DNA of 64,000 bases. It comes from a virus. The stretch spans positions 37,134 to 101,133 of the IMG/VR virus record IMGVR_UViG_3300006192_000007; one strand, 5' to 3'. The position numbers were made by a program, and so were the translations under genes. The notes beneath the pieces are model-generated. The model made no database searches, was not told the origin of the DNA, and worked only from the letters and a program-made list of their open reading frames with translations. Positions 3,149 through 22,713 of the stretch are shown here, piece by piece; the first letter of the stretch is position 1, and each line of letters starts with the position of its first letter.

Positions 3149-4645
3149 ATGTATCACCAAAACCCATTAACTGAAGGCATCCAAGCAGCAAACTCTATTC
3201 AAGTAGACGTTGTTAAGGCATTCTTCATTGCGGTACCTGGAGAACACCCGATGCATTACCGTCCAATGGTGATGACCTTCGATGATAACAGTTTCCGTCA
3301 GATGCGAGATATTACTGCCAATGGTTTAACCCTAGACCATGCGGCACTTCGTCAAGTCTCACGTAACATTATTTCGCAATCACGTCAGTCCCAAGGCGTA
3401 ATCGGTATCGATAACGGATGGGGCACTCAGCGCTTTGCATTCTATATCCTTTTCCGCATTACTACACCCGCTCGTACGTCAGATGAGATTTTAACAGGTT
3501 ATACCGACCATTTAGGTATGTCTGAACTAAATGGCCCATCATCACGTGTATGGGACCAGAACATGACATTGTCTATTAATAGCCATATGCGTGTTCATAC
3601 TACGGAAACCTATGGTACACATGGCAGTCAGTTAGTTTATGCCGGCCGTGACGTCAATCAGGTCTTACGCCCTACTTACGTCCAGCTCAATGACCAGCCG
3701 ATTAATATGACTGAGTCATCCATTGCAATGCGCCCAGTGGACACGTTGCATCGTTTACAAGTTGAAAAGATGGGAGGTGCTGACACGGTACATGACGTTC
3801 GCGGACGAATTGCTATCGGCGATGGTTCTTACGGCGTATCTAGCTCACGTAAAAACGAATTATCTTCCCAGTATCTGTCTAAGATTCTACAGTCGTACTC
3901 AAACGCTCACCGTCAAACCAACGGTATGGGAGGTGAAGTTATGACTACGGGTACAGCGGCATCCTATGCTCGTGAGATATCTCTAGATAGCTCAGTACTG
4001 TTCCGCCATCTAGGACAGTACAGTTCGTATGCTCATGCTGGCTACCTAACCTTTGGTGAGCTAGTTCGCATGTTCCCGTATGTCGAGCAAAACATCCAAG
4101 TAGTTATGCCTGGACGCGGCTCAATCGTGAGCAACGCCGAAGATACACATGGCTGGGGTGCCCCTGATGAAATCACTAACGTGGCACATGCCCTGTCACA
4201 TACTATCCCGGCTATACTCTCAGACTGCTTAGCAGTTAGCTCAACCTTTACTATTCATAACCGTACCATTAATGGTCAGCCAGACATTGCGGTAGAAGCA
4301 CTCCAACCTATGTTTGACAGTGTTGCGGATGAGCGCATTTATCCTGCGTTTTGTGAGAGTATCCTAAATGACGTTATTCCGGAACTCTTCCCATATAACG
4401 AAACCGACTTCCTTATCCAGATGCGCTGCTCGCTTTTTGGCTCATCACGTATCGAAGTTAGTATTAACGGTTCTCCACTGACACCCTATACTGCACCTAA
4501 CTATGCCGATGGTTTAACTGCCTCGTCTATTGGTGCTAACGACGCACAGCTTGCTGACACGGCTATTAAAACCGGTGGCATGTTAGACGCTGTGTTCTCA
4601 AATGCCATTGACCCTGGTTTAGCGACACGCCAGTACACGTACTAA
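3149..4645 (+). CDS. Hypothetical protein, candidate gp69/PicA (Imp1)-like nuclear import factor, 498 aa
   Basis: A TAGGAG ribosome site precedes the ATG, 30 bases after the previous gene. The product is soluble, rich in Ser/His/Met and Asn, with no membrane segment or catalytic motif that I recognise. By order it corresponds to phiKZ gp69, described as the importer PicA/Imp1 that licenses proteins into the phage nucleus. The functional call is inferred from position alone; a structural virion protein is an alternative. Co-transcription with the flanking genes is likely because the gaps are short and have no terminator. Confidence 0.7.
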   Translation: MYHQNPLTEGIQAANSIQVDVVKAFFIAVPGEHPMHYRPMVMTFDDNSFRQMRDITANGLTLDHAALRQVSRNIISQSRQSQGVIGIDNGWGTQRFAFYILFRITTPARTSDEILTGYTDHLGMSELNGPSSRVWDQNMTLSINSHMRVHTTETYGTHGSQLVYAGRDVNQVLRPTYVQLNDQPINMTESSIAMRPVDTLHRLQVEKMGGADTVHDVRGRIAIGDGSYGVSSSRKNELSSQYLSKILQSYSNAHRQTNGMGGEVMTTGTAASYAREISLDSSVLFRHLGQYSSYAHAGYLTFGELVRMFPYVEQNIQVVMPGRGSIVSNAEDTHGWGAPDEITNVAHALSHTIPAILSDCLAVSSTFTIHNRTINGQPDIAVEALQPMFDSVADERIYPAFCESILNDVIPELFPYNETDFLIQMRCSLFGSSRIEVSINGSPLTPYTAPNYADGLTASSIGANDAQLADTAIKTGGMLDAVFSNAIDPGLATRQYTY

Positions 4646-4702
4646 TTACTATTTTAACTTAAATGGATGGGGTAGAGATACCTGCCCCATCAGGAGAAGA
4701 CA

Positions 4703-6481
4703 ATGAAACTATCTGACCTATATCTAGCATTAGCCGCGGCACTGGACGTGTTCCCTAACGAAGAAACCAAGTACCTGTGTGCGAACTATGGTGAAGAAAT
4801 CGTACCGATTACAGTACCTGTTGTACGCAATGGTCAAACCGTAAACCTGCCAGTTATTATTCCTGACGATGAAGTCATGAAGGTGGAAGAAGACGGTACA
4901 ACCATTAAGTTCCATCCATATGCCGAAAGTCCATTCGGTGGTCAAAGCGAAATGTTAAATCGCTTAATCATCCTTGCAGGTGGTAAACTATGTACTACTG
5001 TTATCAGTCTGGTAAGTCAGCTCATTAACCTATCGGTTAACTACGAAGAGTTCGACAAGTACAGCAACAAAACCATGCAGCTTATCGGTAAGTTACCTCC
5101 TGTGAAGAAAGACAAGTCGCGTGAGAAAATCCTAGAGTATGCCAATAAAGTTATGCGTGCTAACACCGCCATTGCAGGCCAGCATCCATTGCTGCGTATT
5201 AACGTAGGTCGTCGTGAGCGCAGTGACATTAAAGCACTGCGTTGGTGTGAGCTTTCATTGCCTGTACTAAAAGACGATGGCGATATGCGTATCTTTGGTG
5301 TTAAAGCACCTTCTAAGTTAGCATACGATACCGTTTACGGTGCATTTGCAACCGTACTAGGGCATGACAGTTTAACTGAAGACAACAAAGTCTTTCTAAA
5401 CGGTTCCCTATCGCAAACTGCACCATACTTTCAGGCGCTATTAAAGACACTGAAAGAAGCGACAGAACACTTTAACCATGTCCTGTCACAAATGGGCCGT
5501 CAAGGCGATAAGTCTGCAAAACTTAATACGGACTGGTTTGGTTTACTGGATGACCCTGATACTCTAGTAAAAGAAATCCCAGTACCATTTGAAGGTAACG
5601 TAGGCAAAGCCGATGGTAAGTCTGCATCTATTGCAGTAGCCGAAGGCACTCAAGCCCCTAAACCTGCAGCAATTAATATGGAACTGAGTTCCAAAGCTAA
5701 AGCACCGGCGCCTGTTACACAATCGGTTGCTCAGACGACCACTATCGACCATAAGGATACCATGAACACTATGCGCAAACAGACTATGTCCGCGTTACAC
5801 AAAACCAATGCCAGTGCCGCTAGCACTTCTATGCGTAAACAGCCAGCACAATCTGCTGTACGTGATGAAGCGCCTGTGGAGGTGGCCGAGACGGCAAAAA
5901 AGCCTCAACTGGAAATTGGAACCCGTTCTCGGGAAGTAGCTTCCGCAAATAACCAGTTGCAGATAGGTGCACGTGTTCGTGAAACGCAAGTACACGATGC
6001 TTTAGGTGAACCAGTGTTTACACGTAACGGTCAGCCACTGATGATGCCTTCTACGGATAAAATCCATAAGGAGCTTTTCATCATTGCACGTGAACCTAAT
6101 GGTACGATTGCATGGAATGGGGATGTTCCTCACTTAGACCCAATCACACGTATCGAAGTCGACCGTCTAAAGCAACAGCGTCAAGGTAACGGTGCGTATG
6201 GTGCAGGTCCTGCTCGTATGGGCTACCAACCTCAACCGGCCGCCTTTGCAAACCCTAATGACCCACGCAATCGCTATCAACTAGCTGCGCCTCCGGCTCA
6301 GCCTGGCTATGGTCAGCCAGCGGCTCCTGGATACGGTCAACCTGGTTATGGTCAGCCCGGTTATGGACAACCTGCAGCACCAGTCTATGGAACCGCACCG
6401 GCCTATGGCACGGCTCCTGGGTATGGTTATACATCACAGCCAATCGTCCAGGGTACAGGCTATGCAGGACGTGTAAGATAA
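4703..6481 (+). CDS. Protein with helical N-domain and disordered Gly-Tyr-Pro-Gln repeat tail, 592 aa
   Basis: The N-terminal ~300 residues form an ordered, largely helical domain. Residues ~310-440 are an Ala/Pro/Thr/Lys-rich linker, followed by a short ordered segment containing PVFTRNGQPLMM, and then a disordered tail with tandem PGYGQ-type repeats (DNA about 6295-6430). Such Tyr/Gly/Gln repeats are typical of self-associating or condensate-forming segments. By order it corresponds to phiKZ gp70. The PVFTRNGQPLMM segment has a look-alike (PILTQNNQPLVM) in the large protein at 52101-54728, which also has a Pro/Gln-rich stretch. No enzymatic function is visible. Confidence 0.75.
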   Translation: MKLSDLYLALAAALDVFPNEETKYLCANYGEEIVPITVPVVRNGQTVNLPVIIPDDEVMKVEEDGTTIKFHPYAESPFGGQSEMLNRLIILAGGKLCTTVISLVSQLINLSVNYEEFDKYSNKTMQLIGKLPPVKKDKSREKILEYANKVMRANTAIAGQHPLLRINVGRRERSDIKALRWCELSLPVLKDDGDMRIFGVKAPSKLAYDTVYGAFATVLGHDSLTEDNKVFLNGSLSQTAPYFQALLKTLKEATEHFNHVLSQMGRQGDKSAKLNTDWFGLLDDPDTLVKEIPVPFEGNVGKADGKSASIAVAEGTQAPKPAAINMELSSKAKAPAPVTQSVAQTTTIDHKDTMNTMRKQTMSALHKTNASAASTSMRKQPAQSAVRDEAPVEVAETAKKPQLEIGTRSREVASANNQLQIGARVRETQVHDALGEPVFTRNGQPLMMPSTDKIHKELFIIAREPNGTIAWNGDVPHLDPITRIEVDRLKQQRQGNGAYGAGPARMGYQPQPAAFANPNDPRNRYQLAAPPAQPGYGQPAAPGYGQPGYGQPGYGQPAAPVYGTAPAYGTAPGYGYTSQPIVQGTGYAGRVR

Positions 6482-6935: not shown

Positions 6936-7003
6936 CTTTTATGAATGCGTTGATAGTAACGCATGGTGTTCTAAAAGATTCACAACAGCACAAGGAGAAA
7001 CCA

Positions 7004-8203
7004 GTGGGAACCATCGAAAAGTTACTCAATCGTTCTGAGTTAACAGGTACAACCGATCTTATTACCCCATATGGAAGTCCAGACTCCAGCCCGCGTTTAC
7101 ACATGGTCGCCGCCCAGTCCCAACAGGCAATGCAGCCATTACGCCCAGATATCCCTATCTCTTTGACAGGTTACGAAGTACAGATGTCTAAGACGACAAT
7201 GGCCATCACGATGCCCTGTGACGCTATTATCGAGGACATCATCTCGCATCACGTATCCGCCGTTATGTCACAGCGTGACACGGTAACCAAAACGATAGTC
7301 TATCAAGACGTAGATACGGGTGAGTATGGGAGTATTGAGCTAGAAGGGTATTTCCGAGCACACGACGTGTTTGGGGCACGTTTAAACCTAACCCCAGAAG
7401 GTCAGCGTCTGCGCCCTGGCATGCAGGTCAAAAAGGATACAATTCTCGCTCACTCAAATGGCGCTAATGTTGGTGGTGTGTATACTACGTCATTAACCAC
7501 TGAAGTGGCTAACCTATCATTAAACGGCGTTATAGAAGACGGACTGATTGTTTCTGAAGAGTTCCTGAAAAGAGCTGCGCCTGTGGCGATGGCATCGCGT
7601 GATATTGAAACCGGAAAAGAGCGTTATTTCGTTGGAGTATATAGCGAAGGTGGCGTATTCCGTGCCTTTCCCGGACCAGGCGAAAAGATACGTGACGACA
7701 ACTTAGTTTTCGCTACGCGTAACTATGACCCATTGTTAGACTGTGTCTATATGCTAGAAGACATGGTTGATACTGTGGACTTTGCCTATGACGAATGCGT
7801 CTTTGCACCACCAGAGTGTGAAAATGCTAAAGTGGTAGATGTTACTGTATATAGCTCACCTTCAACCTCGCGCTTACGTCAGACTCCACCTACCATGGAA
7901 GAGTCCTTAAACGTTTACCGTGAACAGAAAGGACACTACTGTAATAAACTGGTTGATATCTACCGTCGGCTAAGAAAGCAAGAAGGGAATCGCTTAAAGC
8001 TATCACCGAAGCTAGAAGAGCTACTTACCTATGCGCTGGCAGATAAGCCGAATGACCAACCTCGTTCAAACAACTATTCTGGTGCAGGTACGGTTCAGTA
8101 CACCTATAAGGCTAAGCAGATTGATGAGTGGTACGTATCAATTGAATTAGCCTGGATGTACGATTTAAGCTACGGTGCAAAATTCGCGGACTTACACGGA
8201 TGT
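7004..8203 (+). CDS. Non-virion RNAP beta subunit C-terminal part, exon 1
   Basis: First 400 codons of a phiKZ gp71-73-type beta C-part. The start is taken as GTG 7004 because AAGGAG lies six bases upstream; an ATG at 6941 has no ribosome site and sits next to the promoter. Beta landmarks: an ...EDGLIVSEEFLKRA segment matching bacterial FEDAIxISERLV, and near the end GAKFADLHG, matching GDKMAGRHG, the catalytic-region lysine motif. The frame leaves this motif at 8203 and runs only nine more codons in the intron before a stop. Spliced to exon 2 at 10083, the product would be 696 aa with HGCDKGKGVV at the junction. Confidence 0.85.
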
Positions 8204-8284
8204 TTCTCTATAAGGACTGATTTTAATTAGTAACAAATGTACCAATAGTATGTATTTAAATTTTAATAGTGCGAGAATACAACT

Positions 8285-9655
8285 ATGTTTTGGTACATTC
8301 CAGGAACAAACGATTGGGCGATTGATGAAGAACATATTCTTCGTAGTCCAGAAGGAAAACTCATCCGGCCGAGTGTTAACCAAAGGGTTAGATTAACCCT
8401 GTACGGTAAACCAACGGCTACTTCATTGAAGCGTCTATTCCTTTTAGCGCATCATGACATGTTTTTACCAGATAGAAGTCTAGAGGGGCTCCAAAACGTT
8501 AAGTTTGTCCCTCAAGAGAAATCTGGCTTTACTGAAAGTAGTGGGTTCATGCCTATCTTCAAGGAACCCATTCACATTAATAAGGATTTTCGCGTATGTC
8601 CACTATGCCCAAGTCTGGCCGTAAATAAGGAGGGTACTAAAATTTATTGCTGGAGGACTGATAAGTATCTAAATGTTTATAGTCTCGCCGGTTACCGATA
8701 CCTTACTCACTACGGCCGAAATTACAGGGTTCATAGATTAGTAGCATCGGCATGGGTAGAAAATCCAAATCCTCGGACTAAACCGGTTGTTAATCACATT
8801 GACCACAATAGAGATAACCCGCATTATCTTAACTTAGAATGGTGTACCCAGCAAGAAAATGCCGAGGCTATGGTGGAATATGGAAACAGCGCTACAGCCA
8901 TCGAGTGTAAAGTTAGAGACTTTGTAACGGGCGTGGTAACTATTTATCCTAGTGTCAATGCCGTCGCTAAGGCGTTAGGTTTAAAACCACCAATACATTT
9001 AAGTACTTTAATGTCTACCAACCCTTATCGTCTTTATATGGACCGCTACGAAATAAAGCCACTGATGGATCAGACCCCATGGAAAAAGATATCTCCAGGA
9101 GAATCCAGGAAGTCCCAGTACACATTTGCAGTCTACGAGTCACCTGGTAATGCCTTGATTTATCATGATCGTATGCAGGTACAGAAAAACTATAAGATAT
9201 GGAACGTTCCTAACATCGAGCGCCTAATCGATAAGTTTTCTGAACTCCATCCTGACAAACGTATCTATTATTGCAAAAACTATATACATGAGACTATACA
9301 GTCGATGCGTATAGGCACATGGGAAATTAAGGAGTGGGCTTCAATACGAGAAGCCTCTAGAAAACTTAATGTCAGTTTTTCGGCCATACATGGAGTTATC
9401 CGTGATAACGCTTCTTCTAGAGAAGTTAAAGGTTACCTCTTTAGAACAACATCCTCGTTGCCGTGGGAACGCAATGTAGATGCATTTAAAAGTAAAAAAA
9501 TGAGTTTAAAAGCAGTGCACGAAAAGGACGGAAGTACAATCAACTTTGTATCTCTGCGTGCCGCCGCCACCCACTTTAACTGTGATAGAAGCACCGTTAA
9601 AAGATGGATACGTAAAAAAATTGTTTTGTTCGGTTACTTTTTAAACAAAAGTTAA
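8285..9655 (+). CDS. Intron-encoded HNH homing endonuclease, 456 aa
   Basis: An HNH core spans about residues 125-200: YRVHRLVA supplies the first histidine, then VVNHIDHNRDNPHYLNLEWC gives the N-H and following Asn/Trp signature of the I-HmuI class. A degenerate copy of the lead-in (SPEGK ... residues 20-60) precedes it. The C-terminal ~250 residues hold two or three helix-turn-helix-like modules (around 220-250, 345-385 and 420-450; e.g. SIREASRKLNVS and SLRAAATHFNCD) of the NUMOD/IENR type used for target recognition. It would cut intron-less RNAP beta alleles to spread the intron. The ribosome site is weak (GCGAG). Confidence 0.85.
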   Translation: MFWYIPGTNDWAIDEEHILRSPEGKLIRPSVNQRVRLTLYGKPTATSLKRLFLLAHHDMFLPDRSLEGLQNVKFVPQEKSGFTESSGFMPIFKEPIHINKDFRVCPLCPSLAVNKEGTKIYCWRTDKYLNVYSLAGYRYLTHYGRNYRVHRLVASAWVENPNPRTKPVVNHIDHNRDNPHYLNLEWCTQQENAEAMVEYGNSATAIECKVRDFVTGVVTIYPSVNAVAKALGLKPPIHLSTLMSTNPYRLYMDRYEIKPLMDQTPWKKISPGESRKSQYTFAVYESPGNALIYHDRMQVQKNYKIWNVPNIERLIDKFSELHPDKRIYYCKNYIHETIQSMRIGTWEIKEWASIREASRKLNVSFSAIHGVIRDNASSREVKGYLFRTTSSLPWERNVDAFKSKKMSLKAVHEKDGSTINFVSLRAAATHFNCDRSTVKRWIRKKIVLFGYFLNKS

Positions 9656-10082
9656 TAGCATCCCTTAGCCAGTAATGGCTTTGAACAAACTCCTCTAATT
9701 GCGGGAAGTTCTTGGTGAAACTTACTACCAACTTAATGCGGAAACGTAATTAAGGGCGCAGCTAATCACTGCGGTATGGTAAAAAGGTAAGTGGAAAGAA
9801 AATCGACGCAGCGAAGTTCCTAAGTCTATTAACAGATATGGAATGAGTTCAACGACTATCGAAAGGATAGCCATAGTGGTGACATTATGGTGAATAACTG
9901 AGTAGAGTACAGCCACAGGCTTATGGTGGCCCTGGAGAACAGGATAGCGCACATGCGTAATGGAAACGGGGAGCCCCTACCTCATCTTTATAAAGATGTC
10001 GAGGGTGATGATATAGTCTGCCCCTTATGGCGACATAAGGCGGGTGTCTGAGCACACCGGGTCAACAATTGCACGTTGATTG
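9656..10082 (+). ncRNA. Catalytic core of the group I intron
   Basis: This 427-base gene-free stretch is the folded ribozyme core: guide sequence, P2, P3, P4-P6 region around ATTGCGGGAAG, P7, P8 and P9 hairpins. A further hairpin GGTGT ... ACACC precedes the 3' splice site. No protein-coding frame of note is present. Confidence 0.82.
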
Positions 10083-10973
10083 GACAAAGGGAAAGGCGTA
10101 GTCTGTGAAATTCGTCCACGTAGCCAAATGCCACGTGATGACTTCGGCAATATTGCCGATGTAGTACAATCAGGAATCTCTGTCTTTGCCCGTATGAATA
10201 TCGGGCAAGAATATGAGCGTTACATTAATGCCGCATGTCGAGACGTGTCTAAAGATATGCGTAGAATGAATGCAGAAGGAGAATGGCTAGAAGCATTTAA
10301 CCATGGTATGGGACTAATCCGTATTGTCTCACCGGAACAATACGAGCACTATCTTAAGGTTAAAAATACTGACCTTAAGAAACGTGAATGGGTAGACAGT
10401 GTTGCTGAAGATATACTGCGTCTATTAGTGCGTCCGGATTCCGGAATACTAAGCAAAGAGCTTATCACTGCGATTCGAGAATATCGTCGTCCCGATAAGT
10501 CACCTATTACTTATTATAACTATGACGGTAATCTTATCCGCACTGAAAAGACGGCTTTAATCGGTCCTAAACAAATGATTGTCTTAGATAAGTCATCGTT
10601 TAAACCAATGGCGGTAGCCGTATCCCGACGTCAACAACATGGTTTACCAGCGACCACCAACAAACGCACCAAGGTTGCCTTCCCGACTAACCGACAGCCG
10701 CCGAGAAGTTGGGGTGAAACCGAAAACCGAAATCTGTGTGCCGCAATGGGAGGTGAAGCCGTATTGTACCAAACAGACCAATCCACTAACCCAGACGCAA
10801 CGCGCAATGCATTAGAGAGCATGTTACGTAAACCTAAGCCATTTAAAACCTTTAAGCACTTAGACCGCACTAAGGTACCTGAAGGTGGGTCACGCACGAT
10901 TCAGTTCGTTAAGAACTTATTAGGCGCGATGGCGATTAAATTTACCACACTGATACCAAAAGGAAATCGATGA
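10083..10973 (+). CDS. Non-virion RNAP beta subunit C-terminal part, exon 2
   Basis: Exon 2 opens with DKGKGVVCEIRP and continues ..DFGNIADVV....FARMNIGQ, aligning with bacterial beta NKGVISKI.P..DMP...G..VDIVLNP.GVPSRMNIGQ, which directly follows the exon-1 motif. A later PPRSWGETENRNLCAAMG segment matches the beta RFGEME..AL.A.GA region. A stop codon lies in frame just upstream (10077-10079), so this frame has no start of its own except TTG at 10080, and the reading depends on splicing. The last codons overlap the next gene by ATGA, coupling beta and beta' synthesis. Confidence 0.85.
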   Translation, partial: DKGKGVVCEIRPRSQMPRDDFGNIADVVQSGISVFARMNIGQEYERYINAACRDVSKDMRRMNAEGEWLEAFNHGMGLIRIVSPEQYEHYLKVKNTDLKKREWVDSVAEDILRLLVRPDSGILSKELITAIREYRRPDKSPITYYNYDGNLIRTEKTALIGPKQMIVLDKSSFKPMAVAVSRRQQHGLPATTNKRTKVAFPTNRQPPRSWGETENRNLCAAMGGEAVLYQTDQSTNPDATRNALESMLRKPKPFKTFKHLDRTKVPEGGSRTIQFVKNLLGAMAIKFTTLIPKGNR

Positions 10974-18314: not shown

Positions 18315-19145
18315 ATGCTTAATACCTTATATGTCTACACAGGGTTACTCAAACCCTCTGTATTAGAATCCTTAGTAAAACTGGAAGGTTTATTCGAAAC
18401 CCTTAACTATACCGACCATGAAATTGAAACCAGTGAAATTGAAATGTTAGAAGGCATGTCGGACGAAGACAAAGCCCATCGAGTTACCAACGCCTATGAA
18501 AAACACATCGATGTTTTGTTGTTATTGTTAGGGGTTTTCTTAGTCCCCGATGATGACCGAATTACGTTACCTTTTAAAGTGTCTCTGCTAGAAGGGGTAT
18601 TCTCACTGGAAGATACCGATAACCTAGATATCGTAACCTCTACACTGCTAGAGATGGACGATGCTGATGCACTGATGGTCTTTGTAGAGTTACTGGTACA
18701 AGTCACCGCATTCCAGCCTGCTTTCTTACTAGCGCGCATTGAAGATGTTGAGACAAAGCTGATTCAGCGCTTAAAGAAAAAGACTGCGTTACCCGACCTA
18801 CAAGCTTCTGTAGAACACGTACGTCATGATATCCGTGACCGTATCTTAGCGGTCGATGGGGCTAAAGAAGGTATCATTTACCGTACCATAGCTCGTACGT
18901 CACAGCTTCCTTTAAGTTGGTCTGTTGCAAGTGCTGCTATCCTAAGACACGCTGAAGATACAGCCCCCGACGTACTAGGAAGAGAAGTCTATTTAGCCAC
19001 CTTAGCTGCCGATATTGACCCCATTGCCCAAAGGCAAGAAGCCATTACTTTACTGGACGATGTCTACGGAGATAACCCTTCATACTCATTCGCCCTAGAC
19101 AGCCTACTGAGCTATCTAAAGGAATCTACCCATGTTAAAGAGTGA
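18315..19145 (+). CDS. Hypothetical acidic helical protein upstream of RNAP beta', 276 aa
   Basis: TAGGAG precedes the ATG, and the gene overlaps the following RNAP beta' gene by 14 bases, which implies coupled translation. It is strongly acidic and helical, with no catalytic motif. It occupies the place of phiKZ gp79, next to the virion RNAP subunit gp80. A role as partner or packaging factor of the virion polymerase is suggested by the overlap only. Confidence 0.78.
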   Translation: MLNTLYVYTGLLKPSVLESLVKLEGLFETLNYTDHEIETSEIEMLEGMSDEDKAHRVTNAYEKHIDVLLLLLGVFLVPDDDRITLPFKVSLLEGVFSLEDTDNLDIVTSTLLEMDDADALMVFVELLVQVTAFQPAFLLARIEDVETKLIQRLKKKTALPDLQASVEHVRHDIRDRILAVDGAKEGIIYRTIARTSQLPLSWSVASAAILRHAEDTAPDVLGREVYLATLAADIDPIAQRQEAITLLDDVYGDNPSYSFALDSLLSYLKESTHVKE

Positions 19146-20370
19146 TTATTTTAAAATGGCCTTAAAGGAAGGTTGGTATCGTGACCGCCAGTGGATACTG
19201 CGCGTCAATACCATCCAGAAGGCCGATAGAGCCCCTACGGATACCCTTCCTGGTTTTAAAGAGGGACAGTTCTACATCCTCTTAGAGGGCGCAGAAGAAC
19301 CCATTACGGATACTGTACCAGACCAACCTCTCTTCCCTATTAAAGAAGTCCTCAGTCTAACCCCAGATGACTTAAAGTGCGTAAAAGAACCTATTACGAC
19401 CAACTATGGCGAAGCCACGATTAACGCCATTATCTTTGAGTACGGCAGTGCAGGTAAACTCCCTTTTATCCGGGGAGAAATCACCGGTAAACTTCTTTCT
19501 AAAGTGGTTGCTCGTGCTTTAGAAACGGATGTGATTACCGTCGATGACTACTTACGCATTATTGAAGGCATGAATTTCATTACGATGTTTGCAGACATCC
19601 ATGTTGTCGCCTATACTCCTCGGTCTCTACAGGCATCTCCAGAAGCTTTACGTATACGAGATGAACTCTTAGCTAAGTTTAAAGACCAGCTCCATGACCC
19701 TGCGATTGTGGCGATGATAGACGAGGCCATTGTAGCTGCAGATAAAGAGTTTATGGAAGGTGACCCAGCCGCTAAGTTCTACTTAGCCGATAAAGCCTAC
19801 GCTGTCGTTCGTAAGAAACTCTTCCATGTTCAAGGCGGGTTAACTCGACTGGATGACCCTTCTAAGATGGACTATATTCCACGAAGCTTAGATGAAGGGT
19901 ATGCACCAGAAGACTTACCGGCTATCATTAACTCTCTGCGTAGTGGCTCTTATGACCGTGGTGCGTCTACCGCACTGGGTGGTGAAGCCGCTAAGTTCTC
20001 TAACCGTGTGTTCCAGAACTTAAAGATTGCTGAAGAGGACTGCGGGACTAAAGTAGGTAAACCAGAAACGGTCTCAGCAGAACGTAACTTAGTCGGACGG
20101 TATATTGTCGGACGTGACACGCCAATTACCGAAGCGGAGTTTGAGACACTGATAGGTAAGCGCATTATCCTACGAGACCCTACGGGGTGTAAAACGGCAA
20201 ACCGTGCGTACTGTGGCAAGTGCATGGGGGATAAAGAAGTGGAGTCTGAATTAGGACTAGGCCCCCGTCTGTCCGAGGTCTGTTCGGTATTCTTGTCTGT
20301 TAGTCTTGCCGCATTCCACTCGGTTGCCTCTAAACTGGTAGTCTTCGACCCCAGTAAAGATATACATTAG
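19132..20370 (+). CDS. Virion-type RNAP beta' C-terminal part (gp80-like), 412 aa
   Basis: Residues 270-306 (RSGSYDRGASTALGGEAA ... KIAEEDCGT) match the beta' ..SGARG/TALKTA ... VVTEEDCGT segment; LVGRYIVGRD, a C353 ... CGKC (361-364) zinc pair and an AAFH segment (393-396) follow, matching LVGR ... C..C ... MRTFH. This is a second, divergent beta' C-part, distinct from the one at 10970. Its last 17 codons (20317-20367) duplicate, with many changes, a remnant found beyond the endonuclease gene at 21633-21686, so the present C-terminus appears to have been supplied by the inserted element. Confidence 0.85.
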   Translation: MLKSDYFKMALKEGWYRDRQWILRVNTIQKADRAPTDTLPGFKEGQFYILLEGAEEPITDTVPDQPLFPIKEVLSLTPDDLKCVKEPITTNYGEATINAIIFEYGSAGKLPFIRGEITGKLLSKVVARALETDVITVDDYLRIIEGMNFITMFADIHVVAYTPRSLQASPEALRIRDELLAKFKDQLHDPAIVAMIDEAIVAADKEFMEGDPAAKFYLADKAYAVVRKKLFHVQGGLTRLDDPSKMDYIPRSLDEGYAPEDLPAIINSLRSGSYDRGASTALGGEAAKFSNRVFQNLKIAEEDCGTKVGKPETVSAERNLVGRYIVGRDTPITEAEFETLIGKRIILRDPTGCKTANRAYCGKCMGDKEVESELGLGPRLSEVCSVFLSVSLAAFHSVASKLVVFDPSKDIH

Positions 20371-21632
20371 TCATTGTTTAATAGATTTTTTGTATAGAAA
20401 GATATTGCCTAACTAATCATATAATAATTACGATTAATGGGACTATCTTATGACTATTCGTTATCCGGAAAAAACCGCAGCCTTTATTGAAAGAGCAAGG
20501 AAAAAGCACGGTGATAAATATGATTACAGTAAGACGGATTTTATCTCTTGTAGAAAGAAGGTAATTATAACCTGCCACGTTCATGGGGACTTCGAACAAG
20601 TCCCCATTTACCACCAGTCTAAAAATGGTTGTCCTAAGTGCGCTATAGATAGCATGAAGAAGTCTAAGTTTCACGGCATCGAGCGATTCATTGAAAAGGC
20701 CCGGAAAGTGCACGGTACTAAGTATGACTATTCCAGGTCTAAGTATATTGGTGCTCTTAAAAAGCTCACGGTAACTTGCCCTGAACACGGAGACTTCTCC
20801 GTACAGGCTTCTAACCACCTAGAGGGACTAGGCTGTGCGAAATGCAGCTACGATGCTCAGCGTGAGCGCTATCGACGAGAGTTCTTTGAGAAGGCTAAAC
20901 GCGTGCATGGTAATCGTTATGACTACTCTAAAACGGAGTTCGTTAACCGTAGCACATTAGCAACCATTACTTGCCCTGTCCACGGTAATTTCCAGATGCG
21001 CCCAGGTAACCACCTAATGGGGCAGGGCTGTCCCAAGTGTGGAATTACTAAAAATACAGAGAGGATGACCGGCAATACAAAAGACTTTATCTGTAAAGCC
21101 AAGGAAGTCCATGGCCCGTGGTATGATTATGGCAAGGTCAAATACACTAAAGCCCTGGAACCAGTGACTATCACTTGTCCTTTGCATGGGGACTTCGAGC
21201 AAACTGCTAGTCGTCATCTTTCAGGCCATAACTGTCCGAGATGTGAAACTGACCCAGATTCTGGCATTAGACGGTATGTGTATATTCTAGAATTGGGTAA
21301 GATAAATGGTTTGACGGTGTACAAAATCGGTAAAGCCATTGCGCCTAAGGTTCGCCAGCGTACTCTAACCAAAAGGTTGAAACTAGATAATGGCGTGGAG
21401 GATGTTAAGCAGGTGTGGCTTTATACAACAACCTCGAAGCAAACACAAACGACTGTAGAAAACATGCTACTTGAAAGTATCAATTATCCTAAGCTTCAGA
21501 AACATGAGTTGCCTGATGGCTATTTTGAATCACGGATTACTAACTTAACCAATAGTGAGATATGTGGCTTTGCCGATAAGTTGGTGGAGAACATCAAGAA
21601 AACGATTGCCGGATTTAAAATTGGACAGGCTT
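20320..21632 (+). mobile_element. GIY-YIG homing element that replaced the 3' end of the RNAP beta' gene
   Basis: The element comprises a substitute 3' end for the beta' gene (54 bases including stop), a short AT-rich spacer and the endonuclease. The displaced original 3' end lies directly downstream. Both copies are 54 bases from the His codon to the stop with no gaps. There is no room for a group I core, and none is seen. A similar arrangement is known for an endonuclease inserted in a fungal mitochondrial atp6 gene. The left boundary is approximate. Confidence 0.7.
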
Positions 21633-21637
21633 CATGA
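20450..21637 (+). CDS. GIY-YIG family homing endonuclease with four zinc-ribbon repeats, 395 aa
   Basis: Four repeats of ~65 residues each read F.EKA..VHG..YDYS...........TCP.HG.F......HL.G.GCPKC (about residues 8-70, 75-140, 145-205, 210-265), each with CxxH/CxxC-type ligands, resembling the DUF723-type DNA-binding module. A GIY-YIG/T5orf172-like nuclease domain follows from ~275 (YVYILELG ... VYKIGKA ... R). It has only a weak ribosome site. Such enzymes cut a conserved target gene; here the flanking RNAP beta' gene is the likely target. Confidence 0.85.
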   Translation: MTIRYPEKTAAFIERARKKHGDKYDYSKTDFISCRKKVIITCHVHGDFEQVPIYHQSKNGCPKCAIDSMKKSKFHGIERFIEKARKVHGTKYDYSRSKYIGALKKLTVTCPEHGDFSVQASNHLEGLGCAKCSYDAQRERYRREFFEKAKRVHGNRYDYSKTEFVNRSTLATITCPVHGNFQMRPGNHLMGQGCPKCGITKNTERMTGNTKDFICKAKEVHGPWYDYGKVKYTKALEPVTITCPLHGDFEQTASRHLSGHNCPRCETDPDSGIRRYVYILELGKINGLTVYKIGKAIAPKVRQRTLTKRLKLDNGVEDVKQVWLYTTTSKQTQTTVENMLLESINYPKLQKHELPDGYFESRITNLTNSEICGFADKLVENIKKTIAGFKIGQAS

Positions 21638-21686
21638 TGGCATTTCTAAGACCGTTATTTTTAATCCTACACAGGACATACGTTAA
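21633..21686 (+). pseudogene. Displaced original 3' end of the RNAP beta' gene
   Basis: Translates as HDGISKTVIFNPTQDIR and a stop, against HSVASKLVVFDPSKDIH and a stop at the end of the intact gene: 8 of 17 residues identical, the rest mostly conservative, same length. Bacterial beta' has a Gly shortly after this FH, which the remnant keeps and the replacing copy has lost. The remnant overlaps the endonuclease stop codon and has no start. Confidence 0.7.
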
Positions 21687-21858
21687 TCCATAAAAGACAT
21701 AGCATGCTTTAGAGTACACACGCTATAATAAAGAGGTAGTTTCATTACTGCCTTTTTAATAAACCTTAGTAAACAATCCTATGGCTATAGATAGGACGCA
21801 TGCACCCTAACTATATTCTCTATTTTTAAACCATTAACGATCGTAAGGTAATATAATC
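21687..21858 (+). other. Gene-free spacer
   Basis: Holds no convincing coding frame. TAACTATATTC at about 21809-21819 is a weak relative of the early-type promoter. A short GAGGTAGT...ACTGCCTTTTTAA stretch (21732-21759) may be a weak hairpin terminator. Confidence 0.4.
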
Positions 21859-22713
21859 ATGGCTAAAAGACAAGTACGTACTAAAACTGAAACGCCAGTT
21901 GCAGATAAGCAAACGGCAGAAACTAAAAACGAAACAGTAGTTGTAAAAGAGACCCCTGTGGCCGAAGGTACAGACGCTGGCACTGAAACTGTTACGCCAA
22001 CAGGTGATAGTGCCGGTACTGATAGCGATACTGACGGTGGTGACACCACGAGTACTGAAGGTACAACTGCTACTACAGAAGGTTCGGAATCTACAGGCGA
22101 CTCAGGTCCCGTAGATACTGATTCTAAAGAAGACCCTGCGGATAACACCCCAGATGTCGTTCCTCCAGTTGACCCTACGCCAGCCGCTAATCCAGCTCCG
22201 GATGCAGCAGCAACACCGGCAGAAACACAAGAAGCTCGTCATGCCCGTATTCGCGCGGAAGCAAAAGAAAAAGCACGTTTAGTCCCGTGGTCACATGTGG
22301 AAGAGTACTTGGATAAAATGCATCCATCTCGACCTAATAATCGCGATACTATTGTGGGCCATCAGTCTCGTCTATCTCAAGCGTTCATATTGCTACTGGC
22401 AGAAGAGAGCGATGATACCGTGGCAATCGAGTCTATTAAGAAACTCGTAGCGATTATTCGTGAGCGCCGTAAGCCAGGCTCGGTGTTCCATGACAGCATG
22501 TGCATGCGCTTTGTCAATGATCTAGGTGCGGCTGGCATGACCACGGTTCGTATTACTGAGTTCCAAAACATCCTTTTTGCATTGCTGGAAATTGCAGATA
22601 AAGGAAGTAAGGTAGTACTAGACTGGGAAGTCTTTGCTCAGCGCTGCATTAAAGGACGCGGTGAAATCATCGCTTCTCGTCTACAGCGTGCATGTAACGT
22701 TAAAATCGACTAA
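21859..22713 (+). CDS. Protein with disordered Thr/Glu/Asp/Pro-rich N-terminus, 284 aa
   Basis: The first ~125 residues are low-complexity and acidic (Thr, Glu, Asp, Ser, Ala, Pro); residues ~130-284 form an ordered helical domain (WSHVEEYLDKMHPSR onward). No motif identifies a function. It stands alone between the endonuclease element and a terminator. Highly acidic disordered regions are common in phage proteins that occupy DNA-binding surfaces or in packaged head proteins, but no protease site of the S-x-E type stands out here. Confidence 0.75.
   Translation: MAKRQVRTKTETPVADKQTAETKNETVVVKETPVAEGTDAGTETVTPTGDSAGTDSDTDGGDTTSTEGTTATTEGSESTGDSGPVDTDSKEDPADNTPDVVPPVDPTPAANPAPDAAATPAETQEARHARIRAEAKEKARLVPWSHVEEYLDKMHPSRPNNRDTIVGHQSRLSQAFILLLAEESDDTVAIESIKKLVAIIRERRKPGSVFHDSMCMRFVNDLGAAGMTTVRITEFQNILFALLEIADKGSKVVLDWEVFAQRCIKGRGEIIASRLQRACNVKID

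Follow-up and report, generated by a model that had tools for sequence, protein, structure and literature searches.

An intron-less homing element very probably occupies the 3' end of the virion RNA polymerase (RNAP) beta' gene in the window, the whole 64,000-nt stretch of phage DNA analyzed here. In this arrangement, a divergent substitute gene end and an endonuclease gene separate the gene body from the native gene end. The initial annotation had proposed the same order of gene with substitute tail, endonuclease and old tail, and our comparison with metagenomic contigs and genome records supports this architecture. The direction of such a replacement can be seen directly at a second locus, a Dam methylase gene for which we found an occupied allele (contig L023) and an empty allele (contig L192) with a replaced 3' segment.

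Two in-register tails at the RNAP beta' gene

The product of the gene at 19132-20370 matched the profile PHROG_2962 over its full length (8.9e-101, residues 1-411), which confirms the earlier identification as a virion RNAP beta' subunit. The protein was matched by 285 phage records with Vibrio phage Yong XC31 (67% identity) at the top. Its C-terminus stops just past a histidine that is aligned by the gp80 profile to phiKZ gp74. The alignment of the profile to phiKZ gp74 extends to this tail His, that to bacterial beta' covers the part before it, and we take the conserved His to correspond to the FH motif of the bacterial beta' trigger loop. The locus contains the following features:

19132..20370, plus strand: hybrid phiKZ gp80-type virion RNAP beta' gene, 412 aa (PHROG_2962)
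20317..20370, plus strand: putative substitute 3' end of this gene, 17 codons and stop, HSVASKLVVFDPSKDIH (tail comparison; analogy with L023/L192)
20371..20449, plus strand: AT-rich spacer, 23% GC, from the substitute tail to the endonuclease gene (composition)
20450..21637, plus strand: homing-endonuclease ORF, 395 aa, about four DUF723 zinc-finger repeats and a GIY-YIG/T5orf172-type C-terminal domain (Pfam, PHROG)
20924..21043, plus strand: DUF723 repeat above the curated cut-off (Pfam)
20525..20644 and 21137..21244, plus strand: further DUF723 repeats (Pfam)
21275..21610, plus strand: putative GIY-YIG/T5orf172-type nuclease domain, limits approximate (weak matches)
21633..21686, plus strand: putative native 3' end of the RNAP gene, displaced by the insert, 17 codons and stop, HDGISKTVIFNPTQDIR (tail comparison)
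21859..22713, plus strand: next resident gene, in the same position as the gene after the gp80-type gene in Yong XC31

The mirrored tails had been placed exactly in the initial annotation: both copies have the same length, share 8 of 17 residues and end with stop codons in register. The downstream copy lies outside the reading frame of the RNAP gene. With BLOSUM62 the pair scored 46, a value that was reached by 0 of 20,000 residue shuffles of the tail, each searched over 4 kb downstream (shuffled maximum 37; Gumbel p ~1.6e-5). The tail duplication is not a chance match. Using the tail of Yong XC31, which has a single tail and no endonuclease at its gp80-type gene, the highest score within these 4 kb was again obtained at 21633 (39, in register). 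The same scan revealed no comparable downstream copy at 15 other gp80-type loci; it missed the duplication in phage LucasX, where the copy begins inside the stop codon and was found by eye.

To assign the native copy, the tail of Yong XC31 was compared with both window tails. It shares 10 of 17 residues with the upstream and 9 of 17 with the downstream copy (counted by hand), and 32 and 31 of 54 nt, respectively. As this phage fits both tails about equally, we assigned the native copy from its position and from the analogy with the other loci, and both point to the downstream tail as native and to the upstream tail as its replacement. The prediction that uninserted relatives would resemble the downstream copy was borne out for L023/L192 and for a second pair of contigs (L077/L064, see below), but led to a near tie at the window itself. 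A closer uninserted relative of the window gene was not found, and the DNA search of the phage collection returned only Yong XC31-type phages. A degenerate SKTVIFNP pattern for the empty allele of the window had five matches in viral contigs, none of them a gp80-type tail, and the gp80 pattern gave no match in genome contigs. Likewise, no sequence qualified as a donor candidate for the tails of LucasX or the window.

It had also been pointed out that only the downstream copy keeps a glycine after the His. The Gly is indeed present in the remnant, which reads (L)H-D-G with the Gly two codons past the His, but its loss in the upstream tail is not diagnostic by itself because several intact gp80-type homologues have HS or HA in place of HG.

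The insert encodes an endonuclease and is not a recognizable intron

The endonuclease gene is the sole sizeable ORF in the 1.3 kb insert, and its TGA stop codon lies within the opening codons of the remnant. The AT-rich spacer in front of it may contain its promoter. The protein matched PHROG_559 (5e-67), PHROG_681 'endonuclease' (1.2e-60, across the whole protein) and DUF723 (PF05265: 7.9e-16, 58.2 bits, cut-off 20.9). Whereas these matches substantiate the earlier call of an endonuclease, the more specific label GIY-YIG is less firm: the T5orf172/GIY-YIG-type match of the C-terminus is weak (14.9-16 bits) and stays below the Pfam cut-off of 20. A YVY...YKIG motif can be recognized by eye in this domain, and a relative annotated as 'GIY-YIG nuclease family' aligns over residues 9-377; other relatives are annotated as endonucleases. 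A single-sequence AlphaFold model of the C-terminus was too poor to use (pLDDT 44). The combination of DUF723 with T5orf172 has been described for phage homing endonucleases (PMC10448857).

A different gene of the window is split by a group I intron. In the region 6941-10973 this intron, together with an HNH endonuclease ORF (8285-9655, 456 aa), interrupts another RNAP beta-type gene, the two parts of which are ORF 6941-8230 (PHROG_3295 positions 12-402) and ORF 10080-10973 (positions 403-690).

Introns often house endonucleases, as does the one just described, and the insert in the beta' gene could likewise be read as a group I or other intron, or as a case of alternative 3' exons, with 20317 to 21632 spliced out and the downstream tail as the real one. 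However, no Rfam match, including RF00028, was obtained over 19000-22600 even at E<=5. As a positive control, the same tool detected the group I intron in the same window (RF00028 at 9574-10040, 74.8 bits). The insert is not an intron of recognizable kind. In addition, the upstream frame already gives a complete homologous tail, and the same layout occurs at the Dam locus within an otherwise complete gene. Taken together, we consider splicing extremely improbable. Neither is the insert an intein, because the upstream gene stops at 20370, which is 79 nt ahead of the endonuclease start, and no continuous ORF runs through the insert.

Occupied and empty alleles of a Dam methylase gene

The phage contig L023 was found among the relatives of the window endonuclease. 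It carries a Dam-type adenine methylase gene (PF02086), followed by an endonuclease ORF with DUF723/treble-clef fingers, whose C-terminus passes, in the same reading frame, into another copy of the methylase tail. The contig L192 has neither an endonuclease ORF at this site nor a DUF723 match across its whole length, and its flanks are 99.0% identical to those of L023 over 2350 nt and 98.2% identical over 2565 nt.

While codons 1 to ~193 of the two Dam genes are nearly identical, the last ~100 codons, starting at L023:3654 within the catalytic DPPY motif, show only ~60-65% nucleotide identity to L192. Past the endonuclease of L023, the last 21 codons encode the L192 protein again (61 of 66 nt identical), and the sequence then continues as in L192. 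At this locus, the downstream piece is the old gene end, and the upstream end, which differs from the resident allele, is an imported divergent substitute. In total, ~235 nt of recipient sequence were replaced and the last 66 nt retained, with an imported gene segment of ~295 nt. The position of the junctions suggests that the allele arose by one-sided repair, with a diverged gene as the donor.

The gp80-type gene end is a repeated landing site

A comparison of gp80-type loci revealed that the end of this gene is a repeated landing site. Two jumbo phages, LucasX and L077, have tail duplications that begin at the same conserved His-Gly codons and contain no endonuclease. In Xanthomonas phage LucasX (L005:4246-4358), two tail copies are adjacent with nothing between them. 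They differ in 14 of 18 codons, 12 of these synonymous and 2 nonsynonymous, and the GC content is 28% for the upstream functional copy, 55% for the gene and 46% for the remnant. In L077 (5291-7763), the two tail copies flank 2.3 kb of inserted DNA that carries a nitronate monooxygenase gene, a bacterial-type cargo, and the remnant has CGCAAATCAATCATCTGAGCGC in common with the uninserted L064. In PhiPA3 (L012:4432-5625) and Serratia phage BUCT660 (L014:4465-5811), an endonuclease gene directly follows the gp80-type gene with no remnant behind it, and the endonuclease genes of these two phages are different and unrelated.

The duplications in LucasX and L077 speak against a homing element, since they occur without an endonuclease and, in the case of L077, with bacterial-type cargo in its place. 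The adjacent copies in LucasX would fit a local duplication of the gene end, the first step of a rival reading in which an unrelated endonuclease was then inserted between the copies and the tails drifted apart. Against this, the LucasX tails differ almost only synonymously and have 28% versus 46% GC, and the upstream end in L023 consists of ~100 foreign, strongly diverged codons within a near-identical gene. We consider a local duplication a very unlikely origin.

The insert in L077, which lacks an endonuclease, would also fit a site-specific integration by a recombinase in the 3' end of the gene, with the end restored from attP as in the e14/icd type of prophage. Many integrative elements restore the 3' end of their target gene in this manner. 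The 1.3 kb insert of the window, however, has room for the endonuclease ORF only, and neither the ORF listing nor Pfam or PHROG revealed a site-specific recombinase in it. We regard recombinase-driven integration as very unlikely.

Survey of further endonuclease loci

For a broader view, we surveyed 106 DUF723 endonuclease ORFs (260 gene pairs). The window, L023, L165, L181 and L126 reached the floor of the shuffle test (p ~0.001) with stop codons in register. In L165, the end of a tail-sheath-like gene is clearly duplicated around an antisense endonuclease, and relatives match the upstream copy in protein. L181 (SNF2-type helicase) and L126 are probable further cases. Gene starts and 978 non-endonuclease gene pairs were used as controls, and the few that reached the floor were paralogues, an exact repeat, one weak score and L146.

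L146 represents the mirror case of the arrangement (3914-6353): the old 5' end lies beside the resident upstream gene and is followed by the endonuclease and then by a new, diverged 5' end. The working gene with this new 5' end encodes a nicotinate phosphoribosyltransferase (PF04095), and none of five uninserted relatives has an endonuclease ORF ahead of the gene.

Altogether, the layout is clear in only a handful of the 106 endonuclease genes; most of them lack it, which reflects either the decay of remnants or an ordinary intergenic position of many of these genes. An assembly error is possible for any single contig, but is unlikely to have made diverged in-register tails at several unrelated loci.

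Several candidates were removed from the survey. The match in L147 was out of frame within another gene, L186 turned out to be a tandem paralogue, and L022, L110, L142 and L187 were excluded due to paralogous endonuclease tails. Antisense DUF723 endonucleases were also observed just past the 3' end of the tail-sheath-like gene in L219, L225, L232, L233, L243, L245, L247 and L248.

Proposed mechanism

Based on this anatomy, we propose that the endonuclease recognizes a conserved sequence where an essential gene ends; in the window, this would be the codons around the trigger-loop His-Gly. The element would consist of the endonuclease gene and a substitute end that is divergent in sequence but preserves the protein, and the gene would stay functional without splicing by reading directly into this substitute. 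In an occupied allele the target site would be split and the substitute end would no longer match it, which is expected to make the allele immune. The remnant at 21633..21686 would represent the right half of the target site. During repair of a cut empty allele, the displaced native end could serve as the right homology arm and the gene body as the other arm. Cutting, the target site, immunity and present mobility of the element are inferred, as is the direction of replacement at the window locus. The idea of immunity by recoding has a counterpart in work on PhiPA3 and PhiKZ, where 17 silent changes were introduced into gp178 so that this variant would escape gp210, the intron endonuclease of PhiPA3 (PMC11620839); the substitute tail would follow the same logic.

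The element most likely originated by one-sided repair, in which the left break end invaded the gene of a relative and copied its 3' end together with the downstream endonuclease gene, and the right break end was connected with the native tail or a site close to it.

A variant of this explanation does without a pre-built cassette. A free-standing endonuclease and the end of the donor gene would have been transferred by co-conversion, and the leftover tail would be an accident of an imprecise right junction, with no role in later homing. The anatomy is not exclusive to either version. Co-conversion alone is in agreement with the imported segment in L023, which is far longer than the remnant, with the endonuclease of PhiPA3 that has no remnant behind it, and with the duplicated ends in LucasX and L077 that lack an endonuclease. 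In contrast, such an accident would hardly explain that remnants which stay in register as far as the stop codon recur at different genes and that a 5' mirror case exists. We consider this variant possible, though not the favored version of events.

Extending the element with a substitute end to the other loci, we lean slightly towards a natural phage class of 'home-and-rescue' elements. Such elements would combine an endonuclease with a divergent replacement of either end of an essential gene and use the native end as the second homology arm. They would serve several nuclease types at unrelated genes and would be a third way, beside introns and inteins, of residing in an essential gene.

Comparison with known systems

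From the sequence comparisons, the element appears to belong to a type that is known from fungal mitochondria. Mobile ORFs (mORFs) with a substitute C-terminus have been described for atp6 in Allomyces macrogynus, for atp6, atp9, cox2 and nad3 in Glomus sp., for atp9 in Rhizopus and for cox2 in Mortierella (PMC3630166). The parallel to Allomyces atp6, already drawn in the initial annotation, holds element by element: a gene body is followed by an imported in-frame C-terminus, an endonuclease ORF and the native C-terminus downstream, and the two ends are diverged, in atp6 largely at synonymous positions. The fungal hybrid genes are transcribed, as confirmed by RT-PCR, and the Glomus atp9 element encodes a GIY-YIG enzyme (PMC3630166). 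In contrast to the fungal elements, which reside in mitochondria and mostly encode LAGLIDADG enzymes (PMC3630166), those described here are found in tailed phages and have DUF723 zinc-finger endonucleases. Their targets also differ and comprise an RNAP subunit, a DNA methylase and a tail-sheath-like protein, in addition to the version at a 5' end. A phage example that combines a substitute gene end with a leftover old end was not found in searches of open-access literature.

Free-standing phage endonucleases such as T4 Seg/Mob, Aeh1 MobE in nrdA and the ICP1-type T5orf172 enzymes with CapR/DUF723 fingers are of the same enzyme kind and zinc-finger architecture. They share the preference for essential genes and intronless homing with co-conversion. 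However, the accessible text of the respective reports places them between genes, in genes that they split into two polypeptides, or in introns, and describes no substitute end together with an old end (PMC2988022, PMC10448857). The HNH intron endonuclease gp210 of PhiPA3 also targets a conserved catalytic region of a jumbo-phage virion RNAP, in this case the beta gene, but there the intron keeps the gene functional, whereas here a replacement gene end would do so (PMC11620839).

With these findings, the element type also covers bacterial viruses and, as a target, a multisubunit RNA polymerase that is essential. They further indicate that splicing is not required for a homing gene to settle in the most conserved codons of an essential gene. 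Since L192 and L023 are near-isogenic, the homing event can be read directly from the two alleles and is open to testing. Moreover, the ends of phage genes can have a foreign origin, with consequences for phylogenies and annotation. Finally, engineered rescue gene drives would have a natural counterpart in the element. As far as the accessible text of its description goes, the home-and-rescue drive HomeR likewise couples a cutting enzyme to the rescue of its essential target; being an engineered CRISPR system in Drosophila, it is related to the phage element by analogy only (PMC7968924).
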